From Arcobacter sp. CECT 8985 (GTDB taxonomy: Bacteria; Campylobacterota; Campylobacteria; Campylobacterales; Arcobacteraceae): a DNA stretch of 33,737 nucleotides. Within the stretch, counting starts at the first letter, position 1. Every line of letters begins with the position of its first letter. Both the position numbers and the translations under genes were made by a program. Positions 11,684 through 33,737 of the stretch are shown piece by piece. The stretch is taken from the NCBI RefSeq assembly GCF_004116495.1, contig NZ_PDKC01000029.1:1-33737 (forward strand), given 5' to 3'. Under the pieces are notes generated by a model that was not told the origin of the DNA, did no database searches, and saw only the letters and a list, made by a program, of their open reading frames with translations.

Positions 11684-12373
11684 ATGCAAAAATATTTTAG
11701 AAAATTACAGACTCACTCGGGGAAAATACTTGCAGCTTTTCTTATAGTATTTTTCTCATTTTTGGCATATAACTTATATCAAGCACCAGTTAGTGGCTTT
11801 GAAAATAAGTTTATGTTTTTACTTAAAGAGTATGGATATATCATACTTTTTGCATGGGGAATGCTTGAAGGTGAAGCAGGTCTTATTATGGCAGGACTTT
11901 TATCTCATACAGGAGATATGACTTTATATATAGCTATTTTTGTAGCTGGACTTGGTGGTTTTGCAGGAGATCAAGTATATTTTTATATAGGAAGATTTAA
12001 TAAAGCTTATGTGCATAAAAAATTTAAAGGTCAAAGACGAAAGTTTGCACTTGCACATTTGATGTTAAAAAAACACGGTTGGCCTATTATTTTTATGCAA
12101 AGATATATGTATGGAATGAGAACAATAATTCCTATATCAATAGGACTTACAAGATATAGTGCAAAAATGTTTGCATTTATAAACTTACTTAGTGCTTGGT
12201 GTTGGGCATCACTTACAATAATTCCTGTTTGGTATTTTGGTGAAGAGATACTTGTAGTTCTTCATTGGGCAAAAGAGCATTGGTATTTTGCATTACCTTT
12301 TGCACTTGTATTTGGTGGAAGTATAATATACTATTTTAATAAAGCCTCAAAGAAAAAGGAGAGAGAAATATGA
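11684..12373 (+). CDS. DedA-family integral membrane protein
   Basis: A 229-aa inner-membrane protein with several hydrophobic helices (about 16-32, 50-72, 78-96, 158-182 and 200-217) and family motifs: E62 in MLEGEAG (60-66), GDQVYFYIGR (95-104) and QRYMYGMRTIIP (139-150). DedA proteins are proton-dependent membrane proteins; some flip or recycle lipid carriers such as undecaprenyl phosphate, and others affect envelope stability. That would suit an envelope-biosynthesis region, but the substrate here is not known. It ends with a basic cytoplasmic tail and overlaps pepA by 4 nt. Confidence 0.88.
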   Translation: MQKYFRKLQTHSGKILAAFLIVFFSFLAYNLYQAPVSGFENKFMFLLKEYGYIILFAWGMLEGEAGLIMAGLLSHTGDMTLYIAIFVAGLGGFAGDQVYFYIGRFNKAYVHKKFKGQRRKFALAHLMLKKHGWPIIFMQRYMYGMRTIIPISIGLTRYSAKMFAFINLLSAWCWASLTIIPVWYFGEEILVVLHWAKEHWYFALPFALVFGGSIIYYFNKASKKKEREI

Positions 12374-13773
12374 AAATAAATCTAGTAGAAAAGAGTAAAA
12401 AACTAAAATCTTCAGTGGAGATAATAGTACTTAATGATATAGAAAAATCAAAAGACAAAAAAGTATTAAAAACTTTAAATTTTGAGCCAAAAGATGAATC
12501 AGTTGCTTTTTTAGTAGAGAGTAATAAAATCTATGTAGGTTGTGAAAACAAAGATTATGATAGTGTTGCAATTGCAACTGCAACTGCTATTAAAAAATTC
12601 ACTTCTACTACAACAAAAACTGCAAAAATAACGTTAGATGATACAAAACTTTTAAATGCAGTAGTTGAAGGTGCACTTCTTGGAAGTTATAGTTTTACTA
12701 CTTATAAATCAGAACAACCAAAAAGTAAAAAACAAGAGTTAAATATAGTAGTAGAAAAAGTTACAAATGAACTTGAAAAAGTAGTTGAAAACTCTATAAT
12801 TATCTCTGATAGTGTAAATAAAGTAAGAGATATGGTAAACACTGCACCAGCTGATTTTTATCCAGAAGTAATGGCTAAAAAAGCAAAAGAAATAGCAAGT
12901 GAAACTGAATTAGAGTGTAAAATATTTGATGAAAAATACCTAGAAAAAAATGGAATGAATGCAATGCTAAGTGTTGGTAGAGCTTCAGTTCACGAATCAA
13001 AACTAATTCATCTATCTTATAAACCAAAAGATGCAAAGAAAAAGATAGTATTAGTAGGTAAAGGTCTTACTTATGATGCAGGTGGACTTTCACTTAAACC
13101 AGCTGATTATATGACTACTATGAAATCAGATAAATCTGGTGGTTGCGCAGTTTTAGGAATAGTAAATGCAGCATCACTTTTAAATCTACCAATTGAAATT
13201 CATGCAATTGTAGGTGCAGTTGAAAATATGATAGGTGGAAATGCTTATAAGCCAGATGATGTATTAACTGCAAGAAACGGTAAAACAATAGAAGTTAAAA
13301 ATACAGATGCAGAAGGAAGACTAGTACTTGCTGATTGTTTATGTTATGCACAAGATGAAATAAAAGATATTGATTATATTTTTGATTATGCAACACTTAC
13401 AGGAGCTTGTGTAGTTGGAGTAGGTGAATATACTACTGGAATCATGGGAAATTGTGAAAAACTAAAAAGAAAAGCAGTATCAAATGCACTTACTTCAGGT
13501 GAATATGCTACATCACTTGACTTTAATAGATTTTTGAAAAAAACACTAAAATCAGAAGTTGCAGATATAAATAATATAGCAAGTACAAGATATGGTGGAG
13601 CAATTACAGCTGGAATTTTCTTAGATCACTTTATAAAAGAAGAGAATAAAGATAAATGGCTACACTTTGATATAGCTGGACCTGCTTACGTTGAAAAAGC
13701 TTGGGGATATAATCCATTTGGAGCAAGTGGAGCGGGTGTGAGAATGACACTTGAACTATTAAAAAACTTATAA
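12370..13773 (+). CDS. pepA: Leucyl aminopeptidase (M17 family)
   Basis: Two-metal cytosolic aminopeptidase that releases N-terminal residues from peptides. The 467-aa protein has a variable N-terminal domain (about 1-140) and the catalytic M17 domain. That domain holds GKGLTYDAGGLSLKP (230-244), MKSDKSGG (251-258) and NTDAEGRL (311-318), which carry the metal ligands and active-site Lys/Arg. It ends ASGAGVRMTLELL. In some bacteria PepA also binds DNA; nothing in this sequence bears on that. It overlaps the DedA gene by 4 nt and is the last gene before a GC-rich hairpin and the polysaccharide locus. Confidence 0.94.
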   Translation: MKINLVEKSKKLKSSVEIIVLNDIEKSKDKKVLKTLNFEPKDESVAFLVESNKIYVGCENKDYDSVAIATATAIKKFTSTTTKTAKITLDDTKLLNAVVEGALLGSYSFTTYKSEQPKSKKQELNIVVEKVTNELEKVVENSIIISDSVNKVRDMVNTAPADFYPEVMAKKAKEIASETELECKIFDEKYLEKNGMNAMLSVGRASVHESKLIHLSYKPKDAKKKIVLVGKGLTYDAGGLSLKPADYMTTMKSDKSGGCAVLGIVNAASLLNLPIEIHAIVGAVENMIGGNAYKPDDVLTARNGKTIEVKNTDAEGRLVLADCLCYAQDEIKDIDYIFDYATLTGACVVGVGEYTTGIMGNCEKLKRKAVSNALTSGEYATSLDFNRFLKKTLKSEVADINNIASTRYGGAITAGIFLDHFIKEENKDKWLHFDIAGPAYVEKAWGYNPFGASGAGVRMTLELLKNL

Positions 13774-20093: not shown

Positions 20094-21152
20094 ATGCAAA
20101 AAAATTCAAAAATATATGTAGCAGGTCATAGAGGTTTAGTTGGTTCAGCTATAGTAAAAAACCTTGAAAGTAAAGGCTATACAAATATCGTAAAAAAAAC
20201 ACATAAAGAATTAGATTTAACTGACCCAAAAGCGGTGAAAGAGTTCTTTGAAAAAGAAAAGCCAGAGTATGTTATATTAGCTGCAGCAAAAGTTGGTGGA
20301 ATAGTAGCAAATAACACTTACAGAGCAGATTTTATATATGAAAATCTTGCAATTCAAAATAATGTAATACATCAAAGTTATATTCAAAAAGTAAAAAAAC
20401 TACTTTTTTTAGGAAGTACATGTATTTATCCAAAAAAAGCACCACAACCTATGAAAGAAGATTGCCTTTTGACAAGTGAGTTAGAATATACAAATGAACC
20501 TTATGCAATAGCCAAAATAGCTGGTATCAAAATGTGTGAATCTTATAATCTACAGTATGGAACTAACTTCATAAGTGTTATGCCTACAAACCTTTATGGA
20601 CCAAATGATAACTTTGATTTAGAAACTTCACATGTATTACCTGCACTTATTAGAAAAATTTATTTAGCAAAACTTCTAAATGAAGAAAAATATGATGAAG
20701 TAATAAAAGATTTAGATGTAAAAAATTTAAGCCAAGCAAAAGAATATTTATCAAAATTTGGAGTGGATGAAAAAAAAGTAGAAATCTGGGGTACAGGAAA
20801 GCCTAGAAGAGAGTTCTTGTATAGTGAAGATATGGCAGATGCGTGTGTATTTTTACTTGAAAATAGAGATTTTAAAGATACATTTGAAAAGAATTCAAAA
20901 GAGATAAAAAATACACATATAAATATAGGAACAGGTGTAGATATTTCAATCAAAGAACTTGCAGAACTTATTAAAAAAATTATAGGTTTTACAGGTGAGC
21001 TTTATTTTAATACTAATAGACCAGATGGAACTATATTGAAATTAACAGATCCAAGTAAACTTCATAACTTAGGATGGAAACATAAAGTTCAGTTAGAAGA
21101 TGGAATTAAGACAATTTATAATTGGTATTTAAAAGAAAAAAGGTTTTTTTAA
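20094..21152 (+). CDS. fcl: GDP-L-fucose synthase
   Basis: Epimerises and reduces GDP-4-keto-6-deoxymannose to GDP-L-fucose with NADPH. The 352-aa SDR has [10 protein letters not shown] (10-19), AAAKVGGI (63-70), the catalytic GSTCIYP (S108) and EPYAIAK (Y137, K141), and [14 protein letters not shown]. It is about 30 residues longer than E. coli WcaG, with a Lys/Glu-rich insertion at about 192-225. With gmd it shows that the glycan probably contains L-fucose. Its stop codon overlaps the cysD ATG by 1 nt. Confidence 0.94.
21139..21143 (+). promoter_or_regulatory. RBS that sets the start of cysD
   Basis: AAAGG inside the 3' end of fcl lies 8 nt before the ATG at 21152. An in-frame ATG at 21122 lacks such a site and would add a Lys-rich extension not found in CysD. 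Confidence 0.6.
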
Positions 21153-22063
21153 TGTTGGCAAAAAATAGATTAACTCATCTAAAACAACTTGAATCTGAAT
21201 CAATGCATATAATGAAAGAAGTAGTAGCAGAATTTGAAAATCCTGCAATGCTTTATAGCGTAGGTAAAGACAGTTCTGTAATGCTTCATTTACTTCAAAA
21301 AGCCTTTTATCCAGCACCTCCACCACTTCCTTTAGTTCATGTTGATACAAAATGGAAGTTTAAAGAGATGATAGAATTCAGAGATAGAAGAGCAAAAGAA
21401 GTGGGAATGGAATTAATTACATATTCTAATCCAAAAGGAATAGAGATGAATATTTCACCATTTACCCATGGAAGTGCACTTCATACTGAAATAATGAAAA
21501 CAGAAGCTTTAAAACAAATGCTTAATAAATACAAGTTTGATGCAGTATTTGGTGGAGCAAGAAGAGATGAAGAAAAATCAAGAGCAAAAGAGAGAATTTA
21601 TTCCTTTAGAGATAAAAACCATAGATGGGATCCAAAAAATCAAAGGCCAGAATTATGGAACATCTATAATGGTAAACATTTAAAAGACGAGTCTATTAGA
21701 GTATTCCCGCTTTCAAATTGGACAGAGTTAGATATATGGCAATATATTTATTTAGAAAAAATACCAATTCCATCTTTATATTTTTCTAAAAAAAGACCAG
21801 TTGTAGAATATATGGGTACAAAAATTTTAGTTGATGATGATAGAATGCCTGAAGAATTAGCTAAGACTGCAAAGATTGAAGATGTTAGATTTAGAACACT
21901 AGGGTGCTATCCTTTAACTGGTGCAGTTAATTCAACAGCTACTACACTACCTGAAATAATTCAAGAGATGTTAGTTTGTCGTACTAGTGAAAGACAAGGA
22001 AGATTAATAGACTCTGATGGAGATGCATCAATGGAGAAAAAGAAACAAGAGGGGTATTTCTAA
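21152..22063 (+). CDS. cysD: Sulfate adenylyltransferase subunit 2 CysD
   Basis: PP-loop ATP pyrophosphatase subunit of ATP sulfurylase; with CysN it makes adenylyl sulfate (APS) from sulfate and ATP. The 303-aa protein matches E. coli CysD in length and has the PP-loop [13 protein letters not shown] (35-47), [10 protein letters not shown], the segment [16 protein letters not shown], and the C-terminal [13 protein letters not shown]. In this locus it starts a sulfate-activation block between fucose synthesis and the exporter, suggesting that PAPS for sulfation is the purpose. The cysN ATG follows 1 nt after the stop codon. Confidence 0.96.
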
Positions 22064-22064
22064 G

Positions 22065-23525
22065 ATGTCACATCAATCAAATTTAATTTCAAAAAATATA
22101 GAAGAGTATTTAAATCAACATGAAAATAAAGAAATTCTTAGATTTATTACTTGTGGCTCTGTAGATGATGGAAAAAGTACGCTGATTGGAAGACTTCTTT
22201 TTGATAGTAAAATGATATTTGAAGATCAGTTAGCGGCCATTGAAAAAGATAGTAAAAAAAGTGGAACGACTGGAGATAAAATGGATCTTGCACTTTTAGT
22301 CGATGGACTTGCAAGTGAACGAGAGCAAGGTATTACTATTGATGTTGCATATAGATTCTTCTCAACTGATAAAAGAAAATATATTATTGCAGATACTCCT
22401 GGCCATGAACAATATACTAGAAATATGGCAACTGGTGCTTCAACTGCAGATTTAGCTATAATTTTAATAGATGCACGGCAAGGAGTTTTAACTCAAACAA
22501 AAAGACATTCATATATTGCATCTCTTTTAGGAATCAAAAATTTAATTGTTGCAATAAATAAAATGGATTTAGTAGATTTTTCTGAAGAGATATTTGAAAA
22601 TATTAAAAATGATTATGAAAAGATTGTAGCTTATTTACCTCATAATGCTGATTTAAATATTGATTTTATTCCTATCTCTGCATTAAATGGAGATAATATA
22701 TTAAATAAATCAGAAAATACTCCTTGGTACAATAATAAACCATTAATGGAAATATTAGATACTGTAAATATTTCTAAAGAAGAAAATAATTCATTTAGAT
22801 TTCCAGTTCAATATGTAATAAGACCTCATTTAAACTTCAGAGGTTTTTCAGGAACTATAGCTAGTGGAGAAATTAAAGTAGGAGATAAAATAACTGTATT
22901 ACCATCTTTTAAAACTTCAAAAATAAAATCAATAGTATCAAATGATATTAAAAATTTGAAACCAGTTGGAAAAGATGAAAAAGTAGAAACAATTGAAAAT
23001 GCATTTGCTCCTATGTCTACTACCCTTACATTAGAAGATGAGATAGATATATCAAGAGGTGATATGATTGTAAAATCAGATGATATACCAAAAGTATCAA
23101 ATCATTTATCTGCTATGATTGTATGGATGGATGAAATACCTTTGAAATTAAATCAAAATTATATTATAAAAAGAGCTACGAGTGTAATAAATGGAACATT
23201 TAATTCAATTGAATACAAAAAAAACATAAATACTTTTGAAGAAATAGAAGCTGATTCTTTAGCGTTAAATGATATTGCAAAATGTACAATTTCTTTAGAT
23301 AGAGATATTGCTGTAGATTCATATAATAAAAATAGATATACTGGAAGTTTTATTATTATTGATAAATATACAAATTCAACAGTTGGTGCTGGTATGATTA
23401 TCTCTTCAATTATTGGTGAAACTTCACATATTCTTAATTCAAAAGATTATAAAAAAGCAGAAATTGAGTTAAATGAATATATAAGAAGAAATTATCCTGA
23501 ATGGAAATGTAAGGCAATTTTATAA
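22065..23525 (+). CDS. cysN: Sulfate adenylyltransferase subunit 1 (GTPase) CysN
   Basis: GTPase subunit that drives APS formation by CysD. The 486-aa protein has the EF-Tu-like G motifs GSVDDGKST (31-39), DTPGHEQ (110-116) and NKMD (165-168), followed by beta-barrel domains. It lacks a C-terminal CysC fusion; two separate APS kinase genes follow instead. The start at 22065 is preferred over an in-frame ATG at 22017, because AAGAGGGG (22047-22054) lies 10 nt before it and the longer form overlaps cysD. It directly abuts the next gene. Confidence 0.95.
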   Translation: MSHQSNLISKNIEEYLNQHENKEILRFITCGSVDDGKSTLIGRLLFDSKMIFEDQLAAIEKDSKKSGTTGDKMDLALLVDGLASEREQGITIDVAYRFFSTDKRKYIIADTPGHEQYTRNMATGASTADLAIILIDARQGVLTQTKRHSYIASLLGIKNLIVAINKMDLVDFSEEIFENIKNDYEKIVAYLPHNADLNIDFIPISALNGDNILNKSENTPWYNNKPLMEILDTVNISKEENNSFRFPVQYVIRPHLNFRGFSGTIASGEIKVGDKITVLPSFKTSKIKSIVSNDIKNLKPVGKDEKVETIENAFAPMSTTLTLEDEIDISRGDMIVKSDDIPKVSNHLSAMIVWMDEIPLKLNQNYIIKRATSVINGTFNSIEYKKNINTFEEIEADSLALNDIAKCTISLDRDIAVDSYNKNRYTGSFIIIDKYTNSTVGAGMIISSIIGETSHILNSKDYKKAEIELNEYIRRNYPEWKCKAIL

Positions 23526-24251
23526 ATGTATAAAGATTCAAATATAAGATCTATTGTAAAAGGTATATCTTGGAGAATAATAGCAACAACAACGACTATT
23601 TTAATAGTTTATATATTTTTTGATAGATTAGATTTAGCAATAGCTGCAGGAATGCTAGAAACAGTTCTAAAAATAGGACTTTATTGGGCACATGAAAGAG
23701 CTTGGTTTAAAATCAATTGGGGAAGAAAAAAAATAAAGCCATTTAATCTTTGGTTTACGGGACTTCCACTTTCAGGTAAAACTACAATTGCAAATGAAGT
23801 TTTTAATGAACTTAAAAAACTTGATATTCCACTTGAAAGATTAGATTCAAAAGATATCAGAGATGTTATCCCTGATGTTGGTTTTTCAAGAGAAGATAGA
23901 AATAGACATATGCATAGAATTGGACACCTAATCAAAACATTACAAAATAATTCTGTATCAACAGTATCATCTTTTGTTAGTCCATATAGAGAATCAAGAA
24001 AAGCAATTAGAGAAATGGTTCAAAATAATATAGTGGTATATGTAAAAGCTGATATTGAAACTTGTAAAAAAAGAGATTATAAAGGTGTATATGAAAAAGC
24101 ACTAAAAGGTGAATTAGAAAATTTTACAGGTATTAGTGATATTTATGAAGAGCCTCAAAAAGCTGAAATTGTTATAGATACTACTGAAGTTTCTGTAAAA
24201 GATGCAAGTAAAATAATAATTGAATTTCTTAAAAATAAGTACATCAAATGA
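23526..24251 (+). CDS. DUF2061 membrane domain fused to an APS-kinase-like domain
   Basis: A 241-aa two-domain protein. Residues 1-66 look like DUF2061: [20 protein letters not shown], then two membrane helices (about 15-31 and 36-53) and [14 protein letters not shown]. Residues 70-241 form a P-loop kinase related to CysC, with GLPLSGKTT (79-87), FVSPYR (150-155), [10 protein letters not shown] (183-192) and ENFTGI (198-203). It differs from the CysC encoded next door: [10 protein letters not shown] becomes [10 protein letters not shown], and DRVENIRR becomes DRNRHMHR, so several APS-contacting positions are changed. It could be a membrane-bound APS kinase or a kinase for another substrate. 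It abuts cysN exactly and overlaps cysC by 4 nt. Confidence 0.82.
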
Positions 24252-24901
24252 ATGAAATATATATAAAAAACAAACATGAAAATGATGAAAATATTGTTTG
24301 GCATTCTCAAAATATAACAAAAGAAAAGAGAATAATGTTATTTCATCAGAAACCTTGTATCCTTTGGTTTACTGGTCTTTCAGGTTCTGGTAAATCAACT
24401 ATTGCAAACGCAGTTGAAGTTGAACTTTATAAAAGAGGTCAAAAAACATATCTTTTAGATGGAGATAATGTAAGACATGGATTAAATAAAGATCTTGGTT
24501 TTTCTGAAATTGATAGGGTAGAAAATATTAGAAGAATAGGAGAGGTATCTAAACTTTTTGTAGATAGTGGGCTTATTGTTTTGACTGCTTTTATATCCCC
24601 TTTTAAATCAGATAGACAAATAGCAAAATCTTTGGTAAAATATGATGAGTTTATAGAAATTTTTGTAGATACACCTCTTGAAATTTGTGAAAGTAGAGAT
24701 CCAAAAGGATTATATAAAAAAGCAAGAGATGGTGCAATCAAAAATTTCACAGGAATTTCTTCTCCTTATGAGAAACCAGAAGAACCACAAATACACATAA
24801 GAACAGATAAAAACTCAATTGAAGAGTGTGTAGATATAGTAATAAATCATTTGATACAATATGGTTATATACAAGGAAATGAAAACGATTATGCAATATA
24901 A
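24248..24901 (+). CDS. cysC: Adenylyl-sulfate kinase CysC
   Basis: Phosphorylates APS at the 3' position to give PAPS, the universal sulfate donor. The 217-aa protein has the usual N-terminus ([15 protein letters not shown]), P-loop GLSGSGKST (43-51), [17 protein letters not shown] (70-86), [11 protein letters not shown] (89-99), AFISPF (114-119) with the Ser of the family, [10 protein letters not shown] (151-160) and [10 protein letters not shown]. All substrate residues look intact, so this copy is probably the true APS kinase. It follows a divergent paralogue and is followed by CysQ, which removes the product of PAPS use. Confidence 0.94.
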
Positions 24902-25655
24902 AAATATAAATATAGAAGATATAAAAAATATAGCTTTAGAAGCAGGTAAGTTAACTATGAAGGTTTATAACAAAGATTTTCAAGTTGATTATAAAGATGA
25001 TAAATCACCACTTACAGAAGCAGATATAAAATCAAATGAATTAATTTGTAAATCTTTAAATAAATTATATCCAAATATTCCAATTATGTCTGAAGAGAAC
25101 AAGCAAGTTGATTATGAGATAAGAAAAAATTGGGATTGTTACTTTTGTGTAGATCCAATAGATGGAACAAAAGAATTTATCAAAAAAAATGGTGAATTCA
25201 CAGTAAATATTGCTCTTATTCATAATAATACTCCAATAATGGGTGTAGTTTATGCACCAGCATTAGGTGATCTTTATTGGGCAGATGGAAAATCTTCATA
25301 TAAAAATGGTGAAAAGTTACCATTAAAAACAAATAATAATCCAAAAGAAAAACTATTTGTAGTTGCTTCAAAATCACATCTTTCAAGTGAAACTCAGGAT
25401 TTTATAAATAATTTAGATAGTAAAGAAATAGAACAAGTATCAAAAGGAAGTTCCTTAAAACTATGTATGGTAGCAGTTGGTGAAGCAGACATATATCCAA
25501 GACTTGCTCCAACAATGGAGTGGGATACAGCAGCCGCTGATGCAGTTGTAAGATGTGCAGGGAAGATGACTTATGTATTTGATAAAAATGGTTCAAGAAA
25601 GTCTGTTGTTTATAATAAAAATAATTTATTAAATCCTTGGTTTGTGGTGAAGTAG
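24891..25655 (+). CDS. cysQ: 3'(2'),5'-bisphosphate nucleotidase CysQ
   Basis: Mg-dependent phosphatase of the inositol monophosphatase superfamily; it converts PAP, left after sulfotransfer or PAPS reduction, to AMP. The 254-aa protein has SEEN (67-70), the metal motif DPIDGTKEF (88-96) and EWDTAAADA (210-218). I place the start at the ATG 24891, 13 nt after AAGGA (24873-24877) and overlapping cysC by 11 nt. In-frame ATGs at 24861 and 24879 have poor or too-close ribosome binding sites. Its presence next to a PAPS set and a sulfotransferase domain fits PAP clean-up after glycan sulfation. Confidence 0.9.
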
Positions 25656-25657
25656 TT

Positions 25658-26470
25658 TTGAGATATATAAAAGAGTTTTTTAGATTTTTAAATCATATAA
25701 GAAATAGTAGAAAACTACTGTTTACTTTAGCTTACAATGACTTTAAACAGCAGTATTTAGGATCATATTTAGGAATATTGTGGGCAGTGATTAGGCCAGC
25801 ATTGTTTATAGGTGTTATTTGGTTTGTATTTACAGTAGGGTTCAAATCAAGACCAACAGATGATGGAACTCCTTTTGTACTTTGGTTACTTTGTGGAATG
25901 ATTCCTTGGTTCTTTTTCTCTGAAGCAGTAAACAAAGGAATGAGTGCAATAGTAAGTAATGCCTACTTAGTAAAAAAAGTAGCTTTTAGAGTAAGTATAT
26001 TACCTCTTGTAAAAGTCTTATCCTCACTTGGAATTCATATTGTCTTAGTTTGTTTATTAATTATTGCATTTTTATTAAATGGGTTTTTCCCCACAATTTA
26101 TTGGTTACAACTTCCTTATTATATAGTTTGTACTGTTATTTTGACTTTAGGTCTTGGATGGCTAACTTCATCTTTACGAGTATTTATAAAAGATGTAGGT
26201 GAGATAATAGGAGTAGTTATACAGTTTGGTTTTTGGCTTACACCAATTTTCTGGTCATTTAAAATTATTCCTTTAAAGTATCACTATTTAGTAAAATTAA
26301 ACCCGATGGTGTATGTAGTTGAAGGTTTTAGAAATACATTTATAAGTAAAGTATGGTTTTGGCAAAATATAAATGATACAGTGCAGTTTTGGATAATAAC
26401 TATTGTATTCTTAATTCTTGGTTCAATAGTCTTTAAAAGACTTAGACCTCACTTTGGAGATGTGTTGTAA
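25658..26470 (+). CDS. wzm: Polysaccharide ABC exporter, permease subunit (Wzm type)
   Basis: ABC-2 type membrane subunit that exports a lipid-linked polysaccharide, O-antigen or capsule, across the inner membrane. The 270-aa protein has an N-terminal amphipathic region (LAYNDFKQQYLGSYLGILWA), about six membrane helices, and the family stretch GFWLTPIFWSFKIIP then LNPMVYVVEGFRN. I prefer the TTG start at 25658, 5 nt after GGTGAAG (25646-25652). An upstream in-frame TTG at 25637 lies inside cysQ without a ribosome binding site. It pairs with the ATPase gene, which overlaps it by 1 nt. The symbol rests on family type and pairing. Confidence 0.9.
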   Translation: MRYIKEFFRFLNHIRNSRKLLFTLAYNDFKQQYLGSYLGILWAVIRPALFIGVIWFVFTVGFKSRPTDDGTPFVLWLLCGMIPWFFFSEAVNKGMSAIVSNAYLVKKVAFRVSILPLVKVLSSLGIHIVLVCLLIIAFLLNGFFPTIYWLQLPYYIVCTVILTLGLGWLTSSLRVFIKDVGEIIGVVIQFGFWLTPIFWSFKIIPLKYHYLVKLNPMVYVVEGFRNTFISKVWFWQNINDTVQFWIITIVFLILGSIVFKRLRPHFGDVL

Positions 26471-27798
26471 TGAAAAAAGATATAGCAGTAAGTTTACAAA
26501 ACATCTCAAAAGTTTATAAACTATATGATAAACCAATAGATAGATTAAAAGAGTCATTAAACCCTTTTAAAAAGAAGTATCATAAAGAGTTTTATGCACT
26601 TAGAAATATAAATCTTGAGATAAAAAAAGGTGAAGTCTTAGGTATAGTAGGGGTGAACGGTGCAGGAAAATCAACACTACTTAAAATCATCTCAGGTGTG
26701 CTTACTCCAACAAATGGAAGAGTTAATATCCACGGACGAATAAACGCTATACTTGAACTTGGAAGTTCACTAAAACCAGAGATGACTGGGCGAGAAAATA
26801 TAAAACTAAATTTGCAGTTAAATGAAATAGAAAAAAATAGAGAAAAAATAACGGAAGAGATTATAGAGTTTGCAGATATTGGTGAGCATATAGACCAACC
26901 AGTTAAAAGCTATAGTAGTGGTATGAAAGCAAGACTTGGCTTTGGTATAGCAACATCCACCAATCCTGATATTTTAATAGTAGATGAAGTACTTGCTGTT
27001 GGAGATGTGTTATTTCAAAGAAAATGCTATGCAAAAATAGAAAAACTTTTCAAAGATGGAAAAACAGTGATATTTGTATCTCATAATGCTCAGTCAGTAG
27101 TAGAGTTTTGTACTCGTGCAGTTCTTCTTTATGATAGAGAAATTATTTTGGATGATACTCCTAAAAAGGTAACTGATTATTATCAAAAGCTTGTGTTTAG
27201 TAAAAATCATAGTAGTATTTTAAAAGAACTTAATAATATTGATAAAATCGTAGATAATAGCAAAGTTAAAATACTTCAATTAGCTAAAAATAAGTTATCT
27301 AATGAATCTAAATTTAAAAAGTCCAAAAATTATATTGAAGGGTTAAAATGTAATCCCCAAGTTTCAGGTGATTCTGAAATTATTTTAAAAGATTTTTTTA
27401 TTTTGGATACACAAAATTATATAGTAAATGTTTTGAAAACAGGGCAAAACTATAAACTTTATGTTGAAGCAGAGTTAGATAAAGATTATCAGAATTTATC
27501 TTTTGGTATATCATTTTTAAATGTTCAAGGTACCCATTTGAGTTGTATAAGAGAATATTTGAAAGATAGAATTAATATTTATAATAGAAAAATCAAATTT
27601 TATTTAAATTTTAAATGTAATTTTTTACATGGAAAATATTTTATAAAAATTCAATTTAGTGAAAATGAAAAAAGTCTTTATATTAATCATGACTGTTCAA
27701 TTTTTCAAATTGAAAAAGAAAAGCATAAATTTCAAGAGAAAATGTGTATAGTTGATATAGAACCAAGAATAGAAAAAATAATAAATATGGAAGAATAA
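26470..27798 (+). CDS. wzt: Polysaccharide ABC exporter ATPase with C-terminal glycan-recognition-like domain (Wzt type)
   Basis: ATPase partner of Wzm. The 442-aa protein has an ABC domain (about 1-240) with Walker A GVNGAGKST (61-69), signature YSSGMKARLG (148-157), Walker B ILIVDEVLAVGD (168-179) and the H-loop SHN (204-206). A linker and a beta-rich C-terminal extension (about 295-420) follow. In E. coli O8/O9a, such extensions bind the modified non-reducing end of the glycan and make export depend on chain capping. Base composition drops sharply after the ABC domain: 40% G+C at 26641-26760, 22% at 27241-27300 and 15% at 27541-27600. This suggests a swapped C-terminus. It overlaps the next gene by 1 nt. 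Confidence 0.9.
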   Translation: MKKDIAVSLQNISKVYKLYDKPIDRLKESLNPFKKKYHKEFYALRNINLEIKKGEVLGIVGVNGAGKSTLLKIISGVLTPTNGRVNIHGRINAILELGSSLKPEMTGRENIKLNLQLNEIEKNREKITEEIIEFADIGEHIDQPVKSYSSGMKARLGFGIATSTNPDILIVDEVLAVGDVLFQRKCYAKIEKLFKDGKTVIFVSHNAQSVVEFCTRAVLLYDREIILDDTPKKVTDYYQKLVFSKNHSSILKELNNIDKIVDNSKVKILQLAKNKLSNESKFKKSKNYIEGLKCNPQVSGDSEIILKDFFILDTQNYIVNVLKTGQNYKLYVEAELDKDYQNLSFGISFLNVQGTHLSCIREYLKDRINIYNRKIKFYLNFKCNFLHGKYFIKIQFSENEKSLYINHDCSIFQIEKEKHKFQEKMCIVDIEPRIEKIINMEE

Positions 27799-30401
27799 TG
27801 AATAAGAAGCCTGAAGATCAATTTAAATCAAATCACTATCAGCGACATAATGAAGCTCGATTTAATCATTTGGAGTCATTAAGCATAGATTTTAATGATA
27901 AAACAGTATTAGAATTAGGAGCTGGGATTGGAGATCATACAGAATTTCTTTTAAGTCTAGGTGTAAAAAATATAACTAGTTTAGAAGGTAGAAAAGAAAA
28001 TTTTGATATTTTACAAGAAAGATTCAAATCTAATGAAAAAGTAAAACCTTTATTATATAATTTGGATTTGGATAGTCATAATAATTTAAATGAAAAATTT
28101 GATATTGTATATTGTTATGGATTACTTTATCATATATCTAAACCTAAAGAATTAATTGAATTTTTAGCAGAACATACTAAAGAAATTTTATTACTTGAAA
28201 CTTGTGTAAGTTATGAGAGTAATAATGCATCAAATATTGTTGAAGAAGATAAAGAATCTTTTAGTCAAAGTGTAACTGGTTATGGATGTAGACCTGCACG
28301 AAATTGGCTTTTTGATGAATTGAAAAAAAATTATGAGTATGTTTATATGCCAATAACACAACCAGATCATGAAGAATTTCCAAAAGATTGGACAAAAAAA
28401 GTTTATACTAAAGGTAATTTAACAAGAGCTGTTTTTGTAGCTTCCAAAAAAGAATTAAAAAATTCTTTATTAAAAAATAATGTCCTCATGTTTCAAAAAG
28501 AGATATATGAAATACTAGATAACAAAGATGAACCTTTTAGAAGATATTATTCTCAGCATGGAGAAGATTATCTTTTGTGGAAGTTTTTTGACTTTAAAAA
28601 AGATGGTTTTTTTGTGGAGGTTGGAGCATTTGACGGTGTGCACCTAAGTAATACTTACTCTTTTGAACTTGAAGGTTGGAACGGTATATGTGTAGAGCCT
28701 GGACAATACTTTGAAAACTGTAAAAAAAATAGACCAAACTCAATATGCATAAATGCTGCATGTGTAGGAAGTGAGGATATAAAAGAGATAACTTTTTATG
28801 AAGAAGAATTAGGATTATTATCTTCTCTTGATATATCAACTGAAAAAAAAGAAGATATCGAAAAAAGATATGAAAATAGAAAACTAGAATTTTTAGGACA
28901 TAAAGAAAAAACAGTAAAAGCAAAAACACTCAATAGTATTTTAGAAGAAAATGATGTATCTGAAATAGATTTTATTACTATAGATGTAGAAGGAGCTGAA
29001 ATAGATGTTTTAAAAGGTTTTAACTTACACAAATATAAACCTAAAGTAGTTATCTTAGAAGCAAATGATGAAGAGCATAAAAAAGAGCTAATAGACTATA
29101 TGACTATTGATAATAATTATTTATTTTCAAGAAATATTGATTTTAACTTAATCTTCGTTTTGTATGAATATGACTCTTTTAAAATTGGAAAAATAAAAAT
29201 TAACTGTAGTATAGAAAAACAGTTGCACCCTCTTGGTCTTAAGTATACTCTTCCTGATTATTTATCTGGTCTACAATATTATAATGGTGAAAATATTATT
29301 TATACATTATGGGATAGATTTATAAGTTTAGAAAAAAAGAACCAAGAAATAGAGGAAAAAGAGAAAATCATAAAAAAGAAGAACCAAGAAATAGAGGAAA
29401 AAGAGAAAATCATAAAAAAGAAGAATCAATCATTAGCATATTTTAAGCCTTTAGAAAAATATTTAGAAAAAATTGTAAATATTTCAATAAAAATACATCC
29501 TTTAGAAAAATATAAAGAATATAAGAATTTGTTAAACTCATATCATAAACTAAAAGAAAATGAGAATAGGCATAATAATTTTTTAACTTTGCCCACAGAT
29601 GATTTTTTTAGTGCAAGGAATAAAAAGTATTATATCTCAGAACTTGATGAGCCTATTCTCATCTATCAAGTTGGAAAAGTAGGCTCATCAACTATTTATG
29701 AATCATTAAAAGATAAAGTAAAAGATGTCCCTATATACCAAATACACAATATTGAAACAGCAGATGAAATTTTAAAAAAAGAAAAACAAAAAGGTTTTAT
29801 GGAAGGCCTTCATCATTTAACTATTGGATCAGAATTAAATCAAATAATCAAAAATAATCCTCAAATTCATTGGAAGCTGATAGTAGGTATTAGAGAACCA
29901 ATACATCGGTGGTTATCAGATATTTTTCAAAATATCAATGAAAGATATAATTATTTTGTAAAAGAAGATGGTGATTTAAAATATGATAAATTGATTGATT
30001 TTGTAAAAGAATCTTTAGAAACAGAGCCAATGCAAGATTGGTTTATTAATGAACTTGAAAAAACATTTAAAATAAAATTATCTGAAATTAATTTTAATAA
30101 AAATAAAGGCTATTTTATTTATAAGAAAAATGGTATGGAAATATTGTTTTATCAATTAGAATGTTTAAAGTCTGACTTTAATAATATGTTTAAAGATTTT
30201 TTACCAGACTATAATATCTCTTTGCAAAATGCAAATGAATCTACAGATAAAAAATATTATATACAGTACAAAAAACTACAAGAACTATTAACTTTTGATG
30301 AAGATTATTTAAGAGAATTTTATTATAAAAAATCAGTTACAAGATTTTTTTATACAGACTTACAAATAGAAAATTTTATAAATAAATGGAAAGGTAAATA
30401 A
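27798..30401 (+). CDS. Multidomain methyltransferase - FkbM methyltransferase - coiled coil - sulfotransferase protein
   Basis: An 867-aa cytoplasmic protein with no signal peptide or membrane helix. Domain 1 (about 1-215) is a class I SAM methyltransferase: YQRHNEARFNHLESL (14-28) and motif I VLELGAGIGDHT (37-48). Domain 2 (about 250-455) is an FkbM methyltransferase: YSQHGEDYLL (251-260), FFVEVGAFDGVHLSNTYSFE (271-290) and ITIDVEGAEIDVLKGF (393-408). A coiled coil (510-545) holds two identical 14-residue units. The C-terminal domain (about 618-867) has YQVGKVGSSTIYESL (623-637) and REPIHRWLSDIFQN (699-712). These resemble the 5'-phosphosulfate loop (K626) and 3'-phosphate site (R699, S707) of PAPS sulfotransferases. 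Position after wzm-wzt suggests a chain-end modifier or terminator. The domain calls are fairly sure; the role is inferred. Confidence 0.8.
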   Translation: MNKKPEDQFKSNHYQRHNEARFNHLESLSIDFNDKTVLELGAGIGDHTEFLLSLGVKNITSLEGRKENFDILQERFKSNEKVKPLLYNLDLDSHNNLNEKFDIVYCYGLLYHISKPKELIEFLAEHTKEILLLETCVSYESNNASNIVEEDKESFSQSVTGYGCRPARNWLFDELKKNYEYVYMPITQPDHEEFPKDWTKKVYTKGNLTRAVFVASKKELKNSLLKNNVLMFQKEIYEILDNKDEPFRRYYSQHGEDYLLWKFFDFKKDGFFVEVGAFDGVHLSNTYSFELEGWNGICVEPGQYFENCKKNRPNSICINAACVGSEDIKEITFYEEELGLLSSLDISTEKKEDIEKRYENRKLEFLGHKEKTVKAKTLNSILEENDVSEIDFITIDVEGAEIDVLKGFNLHKYKPKVVILEANDEEHKKELIDYMTIDNNYLFSRNIDFNLIFVLYEYDSFKIGKIKINCSIEKQLHPLGLKYTLPDYLSGLQYYNGENIIYTLWDRFISLEKKNQEIEEKEKIIKKKNQEIEEKEKIIKKKNQSLAYFKPLEKYLEKIVNISIKIHPLEKYKEYKNLLNSYHKLKENENRHNNFLTLPTDDFFSARNKKYYISELDEPILIYQVGKVGSSTIYESLKDKVKDVPIYQIHNIETADEILKKEKQKGFMEGLHHLTIGSELNQIIKNNPQIHWKLIVGIREPIHRWLSDIFQNINERYNYFVKEDGDLKYDKLIDFVKESLETEPMQDWFINELEKTFKIKLSEINFNKNKGYFIYKKNGMEILFYQLECLKSDFNNMFKDFLPDYNISLQNANESTDKKYYIQYKKLQELLTFDEDYLREFYYKKSVTRFFYTDLQIENFINKWKGK
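29337..29420 (+). repeat. Two identical 42-bp tandem units in the coiled-coil coding region
   Basis: Positions 29337-29378 and 29379-29420 are identical (unit begins AAGAACCAAGAAATAG). The next 9 bases (29421-29429) begin a third copy with one change. The unit is 14 codons, so copy-number change keeps frame and adds or removes two heptads (residues 514-527 and 528-541). Confidence 0.95.
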
Positions 30402-31270
30402 TGGAAAACTTGAAAATATCAGTAATTACACCATCTTTTAATAGCGCAGACTATATTGAGAGAGCAATTAAAAGTGTAATTGATCAAAATTATAATAATT
30501 TCGAACATATAATTATAGATAATTGTTCTACTGATGGAACAATAGAAATACTTAAAAAATATCCTCATCTTATATGGAAAAGTGAAAAAGATACGGGACA
30601 ATCAAATGCTATGAATAAAGGTTTTGAATTAAGTAGTGGAGAAATTATAGTATATTTGAATTGTGATGATTATTTTAAAACAGACACTTTTTTTCAAGTT
30701 AATGAGTGTTTTAATAAAGATCAAAATATTAAAATTTTATTTGGTAATGTATATATTCATTTGCTAGATGGTAGAAATGTTGAAGTGGAGCCAAAAGTAT
30801 ATTTTCAAGATATCATATATCATTGGGAAGGTTGGAAAAAAATAGGAGATAATAAATTTCAATCTAATTTTCCAAATAATCCAGTACAATACTTCTATAA
30901 AAGAGAAGTACAATCTTTAATTCCATTTAATGAATCTAATCACTATACAATGGATTTAGAATTTTTAGTAAATGTAACATATAAATATAAAGAAAATATA
31001 AAAAAAGTCAATCATATATTTGGGCATTATATTTTACTTAATGATGCTAAAAGTATTGCAGCACAAAGAAAAAAAGATTATTGGACGTATAAAACTTTTT
31101 CATATATAGATGACAAATTAAAAGTTTTTGACTTAGATTATATTATTCAATACAAAAATAGACAATCCGTTGGTTATTTAAATAAAACATTAGAACAATT
31201 TGAAAAAAATAAATATTCTCAGAGTACAAAACAATTATTAAAAGAACTTCTAAAAAGGTTATTTAAATGA
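30401..31270 (+). CDS. Family 2 glycosyltransferase
   Basis: GT-A fold glycosyltransferase, 289 aa, probably acting at the inner face of the membrane on a lipid-linked glycan. It has the N-terminal ISVITPSFNSADYIERAIKS (6-25), the nucleotide site DNCSTDGT (40-47), TGQSNAMNKGFELSSGE (65-81) and the metal motif NCDDYF (87-92). The second half is less conserved, ending in a Lys/Leu-rich tail (QLLKELLKRLFK) that may touch the membrane. Donor and acceptor cannot be told; GDP-fucose or a UDP-uronic acid made upstream are candidates. It overlaps both neighbours, by 1 nt and 4 nt. Confidence 0.88.
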   Translation: MENLKISVITPSFNSADYIERAIKSVIDQNYNNFEHIIIDNCSTDGTIEILKKYPHLIWKSEKDTGQSNAMNKGFELSSGEIIVYLNCDDYFKTDTFFQVNECFNKDQNIKILFGNVYIHLLDGRNVEVEPKVYFQDIIYHWEGWKKIGDNKFQSNFPNNPVQYFYKREVQSLIPFNESNHYTMDLEFLVNVTYKYKENIKKVNHIFGHYILLNDAKSIAAQRKKDYWTYKTFSYIDDKLKVFDLDYIIQYKNRQSVGYLNKTLEQFEKNKYSQSTKQLLKELLKRLFK

Positions 31271-33321
31271 AAAATATCTTAATTTATTCTCCTGTTCCAA
31301 TCTTTCCTGCTATTCAAGGGAATAGAAAACGAATATTTAATATGATACAAAGTTTAAAAAATGAATATAATTTATTTTTAATAATATATGGTAATGTCCA
31401 ACAAATTGAAAATGAAAAAGACTTTTACAATGATGCTTTTAAAGCAACATTTATATATCCGCAGGGAATTAATCATAGCTTTTTATTTAATAGAAATATT
31501 AATATAGATGATGCTTACGAGAATGGACTTGGTGAATATGTATCAGAGATTTGTAATACTCATAACATAGATATTTATTTGCATAATTATATTTTTCAAT
31601 CTAAAGTATTAGAATTTGTACCAAATAGTATTTTGAAAATAATTGATACACATGATAAATTTAAAGATAAATATAAATTAGCAAAATGGTATTCATACAG
31701 TGAAGAAGAAGAATCAAAAGGTGTGTCAAGAGCTGATGTTATTTTAGCTATACAAGATGAAGAAAAAAAATATTTTGAATCAATTACAAGTAAAAAAGTA
31801 ATAACAGTAGGACATTTATCAGAATCAAACTTTTTAAATAAAGAATATAATGATTTGAAAAATATAGGTATTATAAGTTCAGGACATATTAGAGATTTTT
31901 TAGCAGTTGAAAAATTCGTTCAACAATTTATAAAAAATGATATTAAAGGTGTAACTTTAAATATTGCAGGAATGGTTTGTGAAAAATTAGAACCGTTATA
32001 TAATCATCCTAATATTAATTATTTATGGTTAGTAGATGATTTAAAAGATTTTTATAAATCAATTGAATTATGTATTATTCCTCCCGAAGATGGGACTGGA
32101 CTAAAGATTAAATCAGTTGAAGCACTATCTTATGGTGTGCCAATTATTTCAACAAAACATGGTTTTGTAGGAATTGAAACAAATGATTATTTTCATCAAG
32201 CAAAAAATGTAGATGAATTAATGAACTATATTATAGAAATACAAAAAAATAGTATTTTAAACGCATTGCAAATAAAATCAAAAACTGTTTTTAATAAATA
32301 TCAGAAATTACAGAAAAATAATTTAAAAATAGCATTTAATCATGTAAAAAATAAAGGCTTAACAGAGATTTTAGAGCAACTTAAACAAAATGGGTATAAT
32401 TCTTTTTTAAATTCAGATGAATTAACTAGAAAAATTATGAAATTAATGCTTAATCGAGGAGAAGAAGCAATAGATATTGGTGTTAATTATGGTCAGTTTC
32501 TATTTTATTTATCAAATTTAGTTGGGGTAGATGGAAAAGTTCTGGGTTTTGAACCAATAAAAGAGTTATTTGAATTAAATCTAGCAAAAATTGAAGAACA
32601 GAAAATGACAAATATCCTTTTACATAATTTTGCATTGTCTAATAGTGAAGGGATATCTGAATTTACAGTTTTTAATGAGCGAAAAGGATATTCAGGTTTA
32701 AAAGAGAATGTAATCCTTGATTCTTCTTTTGACGTAAATAATAAATCTAAAATAGAAGTTATAGTAAAAAAACTTGATATATTTCTTTCTGATTTTAAAA
32801 AGTTAAAATTAATAAAAATTGATGTTGAAGGAGCTGAATTGTTGGTTCTTAAAGGAGCGGAAGAATTATTATTAAAATTTAGACCAATTATTATTTTTGA
32901 GTTTGGGATGAGAACTGCAAAAAGCTTTAATTATGATCAACAAGATATTTATAATTTCTTTATAGAAAGAAATTATTCTATATATATTATGTCAGGATTA
33001 AAATTAAATTCATTTGAAGATTTTTTATTAGCTGATAGTTTTATTTACAATTTTATTGCTATTCATAATGAGCAAAAAGATAGTATAGATATCCTTAATC
33101 AGTATTCTAATAGCTATCTTGAACAAATTAATATTGATAAAAACTTATCTTGCATTCAAAGTCTAAAATCTAATAAAATATTTGTATATAACAACAATAA
33201 ACAATATTCTAAATTAATAAATATATTGGAAAAATTAAGTTCTATAAGTTTTTTTAAATCACCTATAAAGAAATTTCAAGCGTATAAAAGTCTTATGCGA
33301 ATATATCAAGAGTTGAAATGA
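31267..33321 (+). CDS. Glycosyltransferase - FkbM methyltransferase fusion
   Basis: A 684-aa two-domain protein. Residues 1 to about 360 form a GT-B glycosyltransferase (family 4-like): an N-terminal ILIYSPVPIFPAIQGNRKRI (4-23) and the donor-site segment DGTGLKIKSVEALSYGVPII (275-294). Residues about 385-600 form an FkbM methyltransferase: AIDIGVNYGQFLFYL (401-415), GKVLGFEP (423-430) and LIKIDVEGAELLVLKGAEEL (515-534). A tail of about 80 residues has no clear motif. Such a fusion would add a sugar and O-methylate it or its neighbour. It is the second FkbM domain in two of three consecutive genes. It overlaps the neighbours by 4 nt each. Confidence 0.85.
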   Translation: MKNILIYSPVPIFPAIQGNRKRIFNMIQSLKNEYNLFLIIYGNVQQIENEKDFYNDAFKATFIYPQGINHSFLFNRNINIDDAYENGLGEYVSEICNTHNIDIYLHNYIFQSKVLEFVPNSILKIIDTHDKFKDKYKLAKWYSYSEEEESKGVSRADVILAIQDEEKKYFESITSKKVITVGHLSESNFLNKEYNDLKNIGIISSGHIRDFLAVEKFVQQFIKNDIKGVTLNIAGMVCEKLEPLYNHPNINYLWLVDDLKDFYKSIELCIIPPEDGTGLKIKSVEALSYGVPIISTKHGFVGIETNDYFHQAKNVDELMNYIIEIQKNSILNALQIKSKTVFNKYQKLQKNNLKIAFNHVKNKGLTEILEQLKQNGYNSFLNSDELTRKIMKLMLNRGEEAIDIGVNYGQFLFYLSNLVGVDGKVLGFEPIKELFELNLAKIEEQKMTNILLHNFALSNSEGISEFTVFNERKGYSGLKENVILDSSFDVNNKSKIEVIVKKLDIFLSDFKKLKLIKIDVEGAELLVLKGAEELLLKFRPIIIFEFGMRTAKSFNYDQQDIYNFFIERNYSIYIMSGLKLNSFEDFLLADSFIYNFIAIHNEQKDSIDILNQYSNSYLEQINIDKNLSCIQSLKSNKIFVYNNNKQYSKLINILEKLSSISFFKSPIKKFQAYKSLMRIYQELK

Positions 33322-33737
33322 ATAAAAAAATTTTAATAGTTTTCCCTCATAACCCTTTTTTATTAGAAAATGGAGTTCACTCAAGGTTTTATGAACTAAT
33401 TAAATATCTAAATAATAAAAATGCAGAAGTAGATATTTTATCTCATAAAAATTTTGTTGATGATTGGACGATATATGATAAAAGTTTAATAACTAATTTA
33501 TACCTTAGTGATTTTAAAAATATATTTACTTTAAAATATCGTATAAAAAATAGATTAAAAAGATTTTTATATAGAAAAAATTATCTTGAAAATTTTTCTA
33601 GTGAAGAAATGAAATCTATGTTTGTTCAAATACTTGATAATAAATATGATTTTATTGTTTTTTCATATATTCAATGGGTTAATTTATTAAAAAATGTTAA
33701 TACAAAAAAAACAAAAAAAATAATTATGATAGAAGAC
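33318..33737 (+). CDS. Glycosyltransferase, N-terminal part (cut by window end)
   Basis: The open frame starts at ATG 33318, overlapping the previous stop by 4 nt, and runs to the end of the window without a stop (140 codons). The start KKILIVFPHNPFLLENGVHS, followed by RFYELIKYLNNKNAEVDILS, is the usual acceptor-side Rossmann half of a GT-B glycosyltransferase (family 4-like). The donor-binding half lies outside the window, so the family call is tentative. It shows that the polysaccharide operon continues. Confidence 0.7.
   Translation, partial: MNKKILIVFPHNPFLLENGVHSRFYELIKYLNNKNAEVDILSHKNFVDDWTIYDKSLITNLYLSDFKNIFTLKYRIKNRLKRFLYRKNYLENFSSEEMKSMFVQILDNKYDFIVFSYIQWVNLLKNVNTKKTKKIIMIED

Follow-up and report, generated by a model that had tools for sequence, protein, structure and literature searches.

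A candidate sulfate chain terminator encoded beside wzm and wzt in Arcobacter sp. CECT 8985

The non-reducing ends of O-polysaccharides exported by ABC transporters are known to carry methyl, methyl-phosphate or Kdo caps, which control chain length and export. Every terminated O-polysaccharide characterised so far has a Wzt with a recognition domain, and the terminated O-polysaccharides of Klebsiella have a terminator with a coiled coil (PMC11231755). In the characterised systems a long coil has the terminator at its distal end and the polymerase side at the other, and the catalytic head of WbdD is N-terminal to its coil (PMC11231755). The main text on the Klebsiella terminators contains no word starting with "sulf-" (PMC11231755). 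Some ABC-exported sulfated capsules have loci with PAPS genes and sulfotransferases, and their sulfate is part of the repeat unit (PMC11641403). In the O-antigen of Aeromonas salmonicida no sulfate was detected despite the presence of a sulfotransferase gene by wzt (PMC4483657).

Gene organization and the 867-aa protein

The window analysed here is a stretch of 33,737 nucleotides, positions 1 to 33,737 of contig NZ_PDKC01000029.1. It contains the gap-free run cysN-cysC-cysC-cysQ-wzm-wzt-867-aa gene-glycosyltransferase gene (Table 1). A sequence-only reading of this DNA had placed a full PAPS set upstream of the 867-aa gene, and the profile matches to CysD, CysN, DUF2061-CysC, CysC and CysQ show that the set is real. 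The CysD of the window is 87% identical to the CysD encoded in the wzm-wzt locus of a related genome, L151. The recognition-type domain that had been ascribed to the C-terminus of Wzt was also recovered: Wzt_C occupies residues 298-417 (PF14524, E 8e-12), so the exporter has the adjacent recognition domain that accompanies coiled-coil terminators.

Table 1. Annotated features of the window (coordinates in nucleotides)
Feature	Position	Strand	Evidence
CysD, sulfate adenylyltransferase small subunit	21122..22063	+	PF01507, E 1.5e-56
CysN, sulfate adenylyltransferase large subunit	22017..23525	+	NF003478 above cut-off, E 2e-203
DUF2061-APS kinase fusion (CysC)	23526..24251	+	PF09834, 3e-16; PF01583, 2e-44
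APS kinase CysC	24248..24901	+	NF003013, 1e-94, above cut-off
CysQ, 3'(2'),5'-bisphosphate nucleotidase clearing the by-product PAP	24861..25655	+	TIGR01331, 3e-84, above cut-off
Wzm, ABC-2 polysaccharide export permease	25637..26470	+	PF01061, 1e-16
Wzt, export ATPase with C-terminal Wzt_C recognition domain	26470..27798	+	PF00005, 1.5e-24; PF14524, 8e-12
Proposed terminator (MT-FkbM-helix-sulfotransferase), 867 aa	27798..30401	+	ORF, Pfam, structure models
SAM methyltransferase domain, core match residues 37-128	27906..28181	+	PF08242/PF13649, E ~7e-7
FkbM methyltransferase domain, residues 274-435	28617..29102	+	PF05050, 3e-20; TIGR01444, 9e-19
Helical spacer, residues 498-544	29289..29429	+	Model and repeat analysis
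NKWYS-type sulfotransferase domain, residues 600-867	29595..30398	+	Pfam, alignment, fold
5'-phosphosulfate-binding loop GKVGSST, residues 626-632	29673..29693	+	Conservation in 59 sequences
3'-phosphate-binding motif REPIHRWLS, residues 699-707	29892..29918	+	Conservation in 59 sequences
GT2 glycosyltransferase	30401..31270	+	PF00535, 2e-26
GT1 glycosyltransferase-FkbM fusion	31267..33321	+	PF13692, 2e-9; PF05050, 8e-21

The 867-aa gene is the only sulfotransferase gene found in the genome when three families were searched. The profile search detected neither Sulfotransfer_1 nor Sulfotransfer_3 in the genome, and its single NKWYS gene is the 867-aa gene itself. A second CysD is encoded elsewhere in the genome, adjoining a gene of the PAPS-reductase family. 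Since no other sulfotransferase was found and the second CysD stands beside such a gene, the PAPS cassette of the window looks dedicated.

The ATG of the 867-aa ORF overlaps the stop codon of wzt by one base, in agreement with the overlap claimed earlier. The four segments that had been described in this frame are present in the same order according to the ORF, Pfam and the model, the coil segment being weak. Methyltransf_12/25 was matched at residues 37-128 (E ~7e-7) and is followed by an FkbM domain that passes TIGR01444 with 68.3 bits against a cut-off of 37.7. The C-terminal part matches NKWYS, PF10364, at residues 718-852 (E 2e-9; 37.9 bits against a gathering cut-off of 25.1). Because the full-length model was computed without aligned relatives, its methyltransferase domains are poorly modelled (pLDDT mostly 24-66), and just the helix and the sulfotransferase domain were used from it. 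Relatives of the whole protein were found neither among 60 related genomes nor in the wider genome collection, and the N-terminal half has no relative in viral contigs.

Between the methyltransferase and sulfotransferase domains, the full-length model contains a continuous charged helix of about 47 residues. Part of it is encoded by a 42-bp tandem repeat (29332-29429; 2.4 copies, 96% matches), which gives rise to a 14-aa repeat. The hydrophobic residues occupy essentially one heptad position, and the heuristic coil score was equalled or exceeded by 69 of 1000 shuffles. Of the coiled coil that had been proposed at residues 510-545, the helix thus stands, at residues 498-544; the spacer is a short charged helix whose coiled-coil character is weak at best.

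The C-terminal sulfotransferase domain

Residues 600-867 were modelled with a pLDDT of 91.9. When this model was compared with VIA-align, all 50 of the 50 best matches listed were PAPS sulfotransferases or their close kin (Z 7.4-10.1), including Teg12 (Z 10.1), StaL (9.4), SULTs and heparan 3-O-sulfotransferase (8.2). The rmsd values of the sulfotransferase matches are 3.6-5.6 Å. Foldseek alone returned nothing significant for the same model, the best E being 0.085. At the sequence level, the NKWYS-type family profile reaches the heparan sulfate 3-O-sulfotransferases with E 0.001.

The motifs GKVGSST and REPIHRWLS were found exactly where the sequence-only reading had located them. Residues Y623, G626, K627, V628 and R699 are invariant across 58 relatives sharing 22-32% identity, and S630, H650, P701 and S707 are nearly invariant. 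The PAPS-site pattern, GKV-S followed by R-x-P-x5-S, is kept at conserved spacing in 59 sequences and corresponds to the 5'-PSB and 3'-PB (R-x7-S) motifs of the superfamily. The predicted fold and the conserved motifs support the assignment of the C-terminal domain as a PAPS-type sulfotransferase, as suggested before.

Above the cut-off, PF10364 is absent from all other genomes among 397 of the phylum; a weak match in one of them (L023) fell in a helicase-like ORF and was discarded. In distant taxa, PAPS genes are located within 8 kb of 16 of the 79 NKWYS-type genes. The open full-text papers searched contain no account of the NKWYS motif or of a sulfated terminator.

The gene slot after wzt in related genomes

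In the O9 locus of E. coli HS the gene order is wzm-wzt-wbdD-wbdA, and in one genome of the collection (L132) a WbdD relative occupies the slot after wzt. A long-coil protein is encoded by the first gene after a Wzt_C-type wzt in 18 of 40 loci of the phylum, compared with 8 of 157 elsewhere. These observations show that the 867-aa gene lies in the position used by terminators in other genomes. A methyltransferase with a coil is the common terminator make-up in the phylum, also beside the closest Wzt relative (L148). The recognition domain of the window Wzt does not group with those of other sulfotransferase-associated Wzt proteins.

A Sulfotransfer_3-like head joined to a coil is encoded in seven other genomes of the phylum, in six of them beside wzm/wzt. 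The head is conserved and the coils range from about 60 to more than 200 residues. Two genomes, L151 and L136, show the order cysDNCCQ-wzm-x-wzt-MT-ST/coil, that is, the same parts as the window, unfused and with one inserted gene (x). The double-CysC cassette is present in 5 of the 7 genomes with a sulfotransferase-coil protein versus 14 of 290 genomes otherwise. Kinship of the NKWYS and Sulfotransfer_3-like heads was considered and rejected: the profile comparison aligned the P-loop strand alone and was not significant, and the two are treated here as unrelated or very distant.

The sulfotransferase-coil proteins beside wzm/wzt, together with the long-coil enrichment, probably place the 867-aa protein in a wider class. 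Sulfate may even serve a group of glycans exported by Wzm/Wzt as a general signal for ending the chain, with at least two unrelated sulfotransferase types having entered the terminator slot independently (NKWYS with two methyltransferases here, a Sulfotransfer_3-like head on a variable coil in the seven genomes), often with a dedicated cysD-cysN-cysC-cysC-cysQ cassette. We put forward this generalization tentatively, at somewhat less than even odds.

Proposed function and comparison with known systems

We propose that the 867-aa protein terminates the chains of a Wzm/Wzt-exported surface glycan and places sulfate from PAPS, together with O-methyl, at the non-reducing end. The probability of this proposal is estimated at about 0.5, and the locus is best read as encoding a terminator that adds sulfate (plus methyl). 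The NKWYS-type domain would transfer sulfate from PAPS to the lipid-linked chain at its non-reducing end, where at least one of the two methyltransferase domains would also add O-methyl. PAPS would be supplied by the adjoining cysDNCC genes and PAP cleared by CysQ. The modified end would halt elongation by the neighbouring glycosyltransferases and would be bound by the Wzt_C domain, which would lead to the export of capped chains only. The helix would hold the active sites at a distance from each other and might act as a ruler.

The strongest competing explanation is that the protein sulfates and methylates the repeat unit, along the chain or on a side branch before export, and that another protein ends the chain. 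Repeat-unit sulfate is known from ABC-exported capsules whose loci include PAPS genes and sulfotransferases (PMC11641403), a classic ruler would be longer than this helix, and the majority of NKWYS-type genes in other taxa stand alone without a nearby Wzt. Another FkbM domain is present in the downstream glycosyltransferase fusion, so methylation may be general. The 867-aa gene nevertheless lies where many loci have their terminator gene, and its product includes a fused spacer. The exporter has the recognition domain that accompanies capped chains in characterised systems (PMC11231755), and there is no second terminator candidate within the window, although the contig stops at position 33737. 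Repeat-unit tailoring is considered possible, at odds of roughly one in three.

It is distinctly less probable that the cap read by Wzt is the work of one or both N-terminal methyltransferases, with the fused sulfotransferase decorating the glycan elsewhere. The frequency of methyltransferase-coil proteins in the phylum, including the one next to the closest Wzt relative, and the N-terminal catalytic head of WbdD (PMC11231755) would fit such a division of labour, but other genomes have a sulfotransferase-like head alone on the coil, and the PAPS cassette runs directly into wzm. The C-terminal domain could also be a binding domain with a sulfotransferase fold that transfers no sulfate, or act on lipid or protein. 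The annotation of PF10364 reads just "putative capsular polysaccharide synthesis", the search of solved structures yielded no member of the family, and the motif name is absent from the literature searched; the PAPS-contact positions are kept, however, and PAPS genes recur near the family in distant taxa, which makes this explanation very improbable.

For the terminator proposal, the points counted in favour were the fold, the PAPS-site residues, the PAPS genes near NKWYS-type genes, the dedicated-looking cassette, the slot, the convergent sulfotransferase-coil case and the characterised Wzt recognition domains (PMC11231755). Counted against it were the short and weak spacer with catalytic domains on both of its sides, the non-significant Foldseek result, the rmsd of 3.6-5.6 Å, the Wzt_C domain that stands apart from the other sulfotransferase-associated ones, repeat-unit sulfation elsewhere (PMC11641403) and the Aeromonas salmonicida case (PMC4483657). 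If the proposal is true, a sulfate cap would be a new, charged chemistry beside methyl, methyl-phosphate and Kdo, the Wzt_C domain would be a sulfate-sugar binder, and the arrangement cysDNCCQ-wzm-wzt-sulfotransferase/coil could be used as a genomic signature to find such glycans. The sulfotransferase-coil family, with its conserved head and variable coils, would offer a natural series for the molecular-ruler idea.

The C-terminal domain corresponds to a full-length member of the stand-alone NKWYS PF10364 proteins (260-320 aa) with the same conserved sites, whereas the MT-FkbM-helix part is missing from every relative retrieved. With heparan 3-O-sulfotransferase, StaL and Teg12 the domain has the fold and the PAPS-site motifs in common but just 10-18% identity. 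The wbsalmo locus of Aeromonas salmonicida likewise has a sulfotransferase gene, ORF19, adjoining wzt in an ABC-exported O-antigen locus; its product, however, is a stand-alone protein of 216 aa with no assigned function (PMC4483657).

The sequence-only reading had regarded the protein as a WbdD whose kinase is replaced by a sulfotransferase. In its details this view was rejected: BLASTP against WbdD gave a single 21% match around the generic methyltransferase motif I (E 0.67), with no homology past it, and the sulfotransferase stands across a short spacer. Pfam and NCBIfam detected no kinase family in the 867-aa protein. As with WbdD of E. coli O8/O9a and K. pneumoniae O3/O5, the gene directly follows a Wzt_C-type wzt and precedes chain-building glycosyltransferase genes, and its product likewise combines a SAM methyltransferase with a helical spacer. 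Unlike WbdD, it has no kinase and possesses additional FkbM and sulfotransferase domains, with a catalytic domain after the spacer, on the opposite side. The coil segments of WbdD extend over about 470-596, so the spacer here is about a third as long. In contrast to the characterised coil terminators (PMC11231755), catalytic domains flank the helix on both sides. The terminators of K. pneumoniae O4, O7 and O12, which are Kdo transferases and a methyltransferase-kinase, resemble the 867-aa protein in their multi-domain logic, their Wzt recognition domain and, as far as its weak spacer goes, their coil, and differ from it in their caps, which are Kdo or methyl-phosphate (PMC11231755).

Gene run and domain composition

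The protein of 867 aa had been described, in a sequence-only reading, as two methyltransferases, a coiled coil and a sulfotransferase-like domain in one frame. Pfam searches confirmed both methyltransferases and identified the C-terminal end as NKWYS (PF10364); a predicted helix lies between the FkbM and NKWYS domains. Only the latter half of the C-terminal domain falls within the PF10364 match, and the P-loop half precedes it. A GT2 gene starts at the last base of the ORF. Starting with cysD (21122), the genes abut or overlap without a gap as far as the end of the contig and therefore appear to form one operon.

Features of the window and of loci from other genomes (L numbers)
Feature	Position	Remarks
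Proposed terminator ORF	window 27798-30401 (+)	867 aa; one base in common with the wzt stop
SAM methyltransferase domain	residues 37-128	Pfam
FkbM methyltransferase domain	residues 274-435	Pfam
Spacer helix	residues 498-544	
42-bp tandem repeat encoding the helix	window 29332-29429	2.4 copies, 96%
NKWYS PF10364	residues 718-852	Pfam
Genes 5′ of the ORF		CysD, CysN, DUF2061-APS kinase fusion, second APS kinase, CysQ, Wzm, Wzt (with Wzt_C domain)
APS kinase with N-terminal DUF2061 membrane domain, then second APS kinase	window 23526-24251	pair in about 20/298 genomes of the phylum
GT1 glycosyltransferase fused to further FkbM methyltransferase	window 31267-33321	
Next gene	window 33318-33737	broken by contig end; locus without its 3′ part
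Sulfotransferase-coil proteins	L138:2675-3985; L136:8191-9216; L187:11618-13234	also in L188, L189, L155, L190
Sulfotransferase-coil gene and second sulfotransferase	L190 (G328):3-956, 1818-2639	
Two stand-alone sulfotransferases	L139 (G259):8316-9959	Sulfotransfer_2 and _3 types; directly after Wzt_C wzt
Schlafen/AlbA_2-type protein	L151 (G321):1205-2554	between wzm and wzt
NKWYS fused with TPR, B12-radical SAM and GT2 domains	L039:7989-14741	2250 aa
Two NKWYS stretches and GT in one fusion	L049:144-3116	
Sulfotransfer_3, WbsX and NKWYS fusion	L087:1642-5232	
Two NKWYS sulfotransferase-like genes	L024:8773-9636, 11956-12786	Vibrio campbellii exopolysaccharide locus

The C-terminal domain and its probable PAPS supply

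Relatives of the C-terminal domain, mostly stand-alone proteins of 260-320 aa, were collected from 79 loci of Proteobacteria, Bacteroidetes, Firmicutes, Chloroflexi, Cyanobacteria, Planctomycetes and others. Y623, G626, K627, V628 and R699 (numbering of the 867-aa protein) never vary in the alignment of 59 sequences, and S630, H650, P701 and S707 hardly do. These residues form the PAPS signature of sulfotransferases, a P-loop-like 5′-PSB and an R-x7-S 3′-PB. The comparison with PAPS sulfotransferases that had been proposed as a check was performed with an AlphaFold2 model of residues 600-867 (pLDDT 91.9). Foldseek alone gave no significant match, with SULT and tyrosylprotein sulfotransferase structures among its top rows; with a second structural aligner, all of the 50 best rows were sulfotransferases or close kin, and the glycopeptide sulfotransferases Teg12 (Z 10.1, rmsd 3.8 Å, 179 residues) and StaL stood at the top. 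Heparan 3-O-sulfotransferases appeared in these rows (Z 8.2) and were also found by sequence with the family profile (E 0.001). Of the 79 relatives, 16 have genes for PAPS synthesis no more than 8 kb away; they belong to Enterovibrio/Grimontia, Bacteroidales and several Bacillales. The sulfotransferase fold can safely be assigned, and the predicted activity is likely.

Within the host genome NKWYS occurs once, in the window gene, and Sulfotransfer_1 and Sulfotransfer_3, the other families searched, have no match. On another contig a second CysD-like frame adjoins a PAPS-reductase-family frame and presumably belongs to the assimilatory pathway. The cassette in the window therefore seems to be an additional copy with a dedicated role.

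Position after wzt and role of the 867-aa protein

Among 40 Wzt_C loci of the phylum, a long coiled coil, scored heuristically, is encoded directly 3′ of wzt in 18, versus 8 of 157 other locus genes (Fisher p 5e-9, which is optimistic because the genomes are related). Many of these proteins are a methyltransferase plus coil, and a clear WbdD relative occupies the position in L132.

The protein would cap the non-reducing end of the glycan with sulfate, O-methyl or both. The main rival is that it sulfates the repeat unit instead, as some loci with PAPS genes and sulfotransferases are known to do (PMC11641403). Judged from gene context and domains, the protein's role is best explained by a terminal cap, given the PAPS cassette, a Wzt that has a recognition domain, the gene's position in the terminator slot, and the sulfotransferase and methyltransferases on a helical spacer. 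The observation behind the earlier proposal of a sulfate/methyl terminator is confirmed, and the proposal itself is supported in part. The spacer is a single short helix of weak coil character by the heuristic score, and no ruler function is therefore claimed. A change in copy number of the 42-bp repeat would shorten or lengthen it in frame.

The sulfotransferase-coil family and known systems

A different protein, with a sulfotransferase-like head followed by a repeat-built coil, is encoded in 7 of 298 genomes of the phylum. In six of them its gene adjoins wzm/wzt; in the seventh, G323, the contig ends too soon for these genes to be seen. The conserved head carries LGMHRSGTSAL and PYRNPxEVAxSL and gives a weak but recurring Sulfotransfer_3 match (best 3e-6); whole-protein identity to the L138 member is 36-62%. 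Coils range from about 60 to >200 residues, making the family a candidate series of natural molecular rulers. Strong APS kinases occur in 6 of the 7 genomes versus 40/290 others, and the DUF2061-CysC + CysC pair in 5 versus 14/290, counts that ignore relatedness; no true APS kinase was found in G328. This wider class is arguably more testable than the window protein.

The G321 locus reads cysD-cysN-cysC-cysC-cysQ-wzm-(AlbA_2 protein)-wzt-methyltransferase-like-sulfotransferase/coil-GT, its Cys proteins being 69-87% identical to those of the window. The methyltransferase-like protein (214 aa) was called by motif I only and matched no Pfam family. G321 shows the window arrangement with the functions on separate proteins and one gene inserted. 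One clade of the Wzt tree holds the window Wzt, the sulfotransferase-associated Wzt proteins and that of L148; in the recognition-domain tree the sulfotransferase-associated proteins cluster and the window's forms a separate long branch.

The gene order in E. coli HS (O9) is wzm-wzt-wbdD-wbdA. The Y-x-S-[RK]-S-W-K motif ending complete sulfotransferase-coil proteins resembles SRSWRMTKGYR after the coil of WbdD. If the cap is terminal, the 867-aa protein would be a new variant of chain terminator, with a sulfotransferase.
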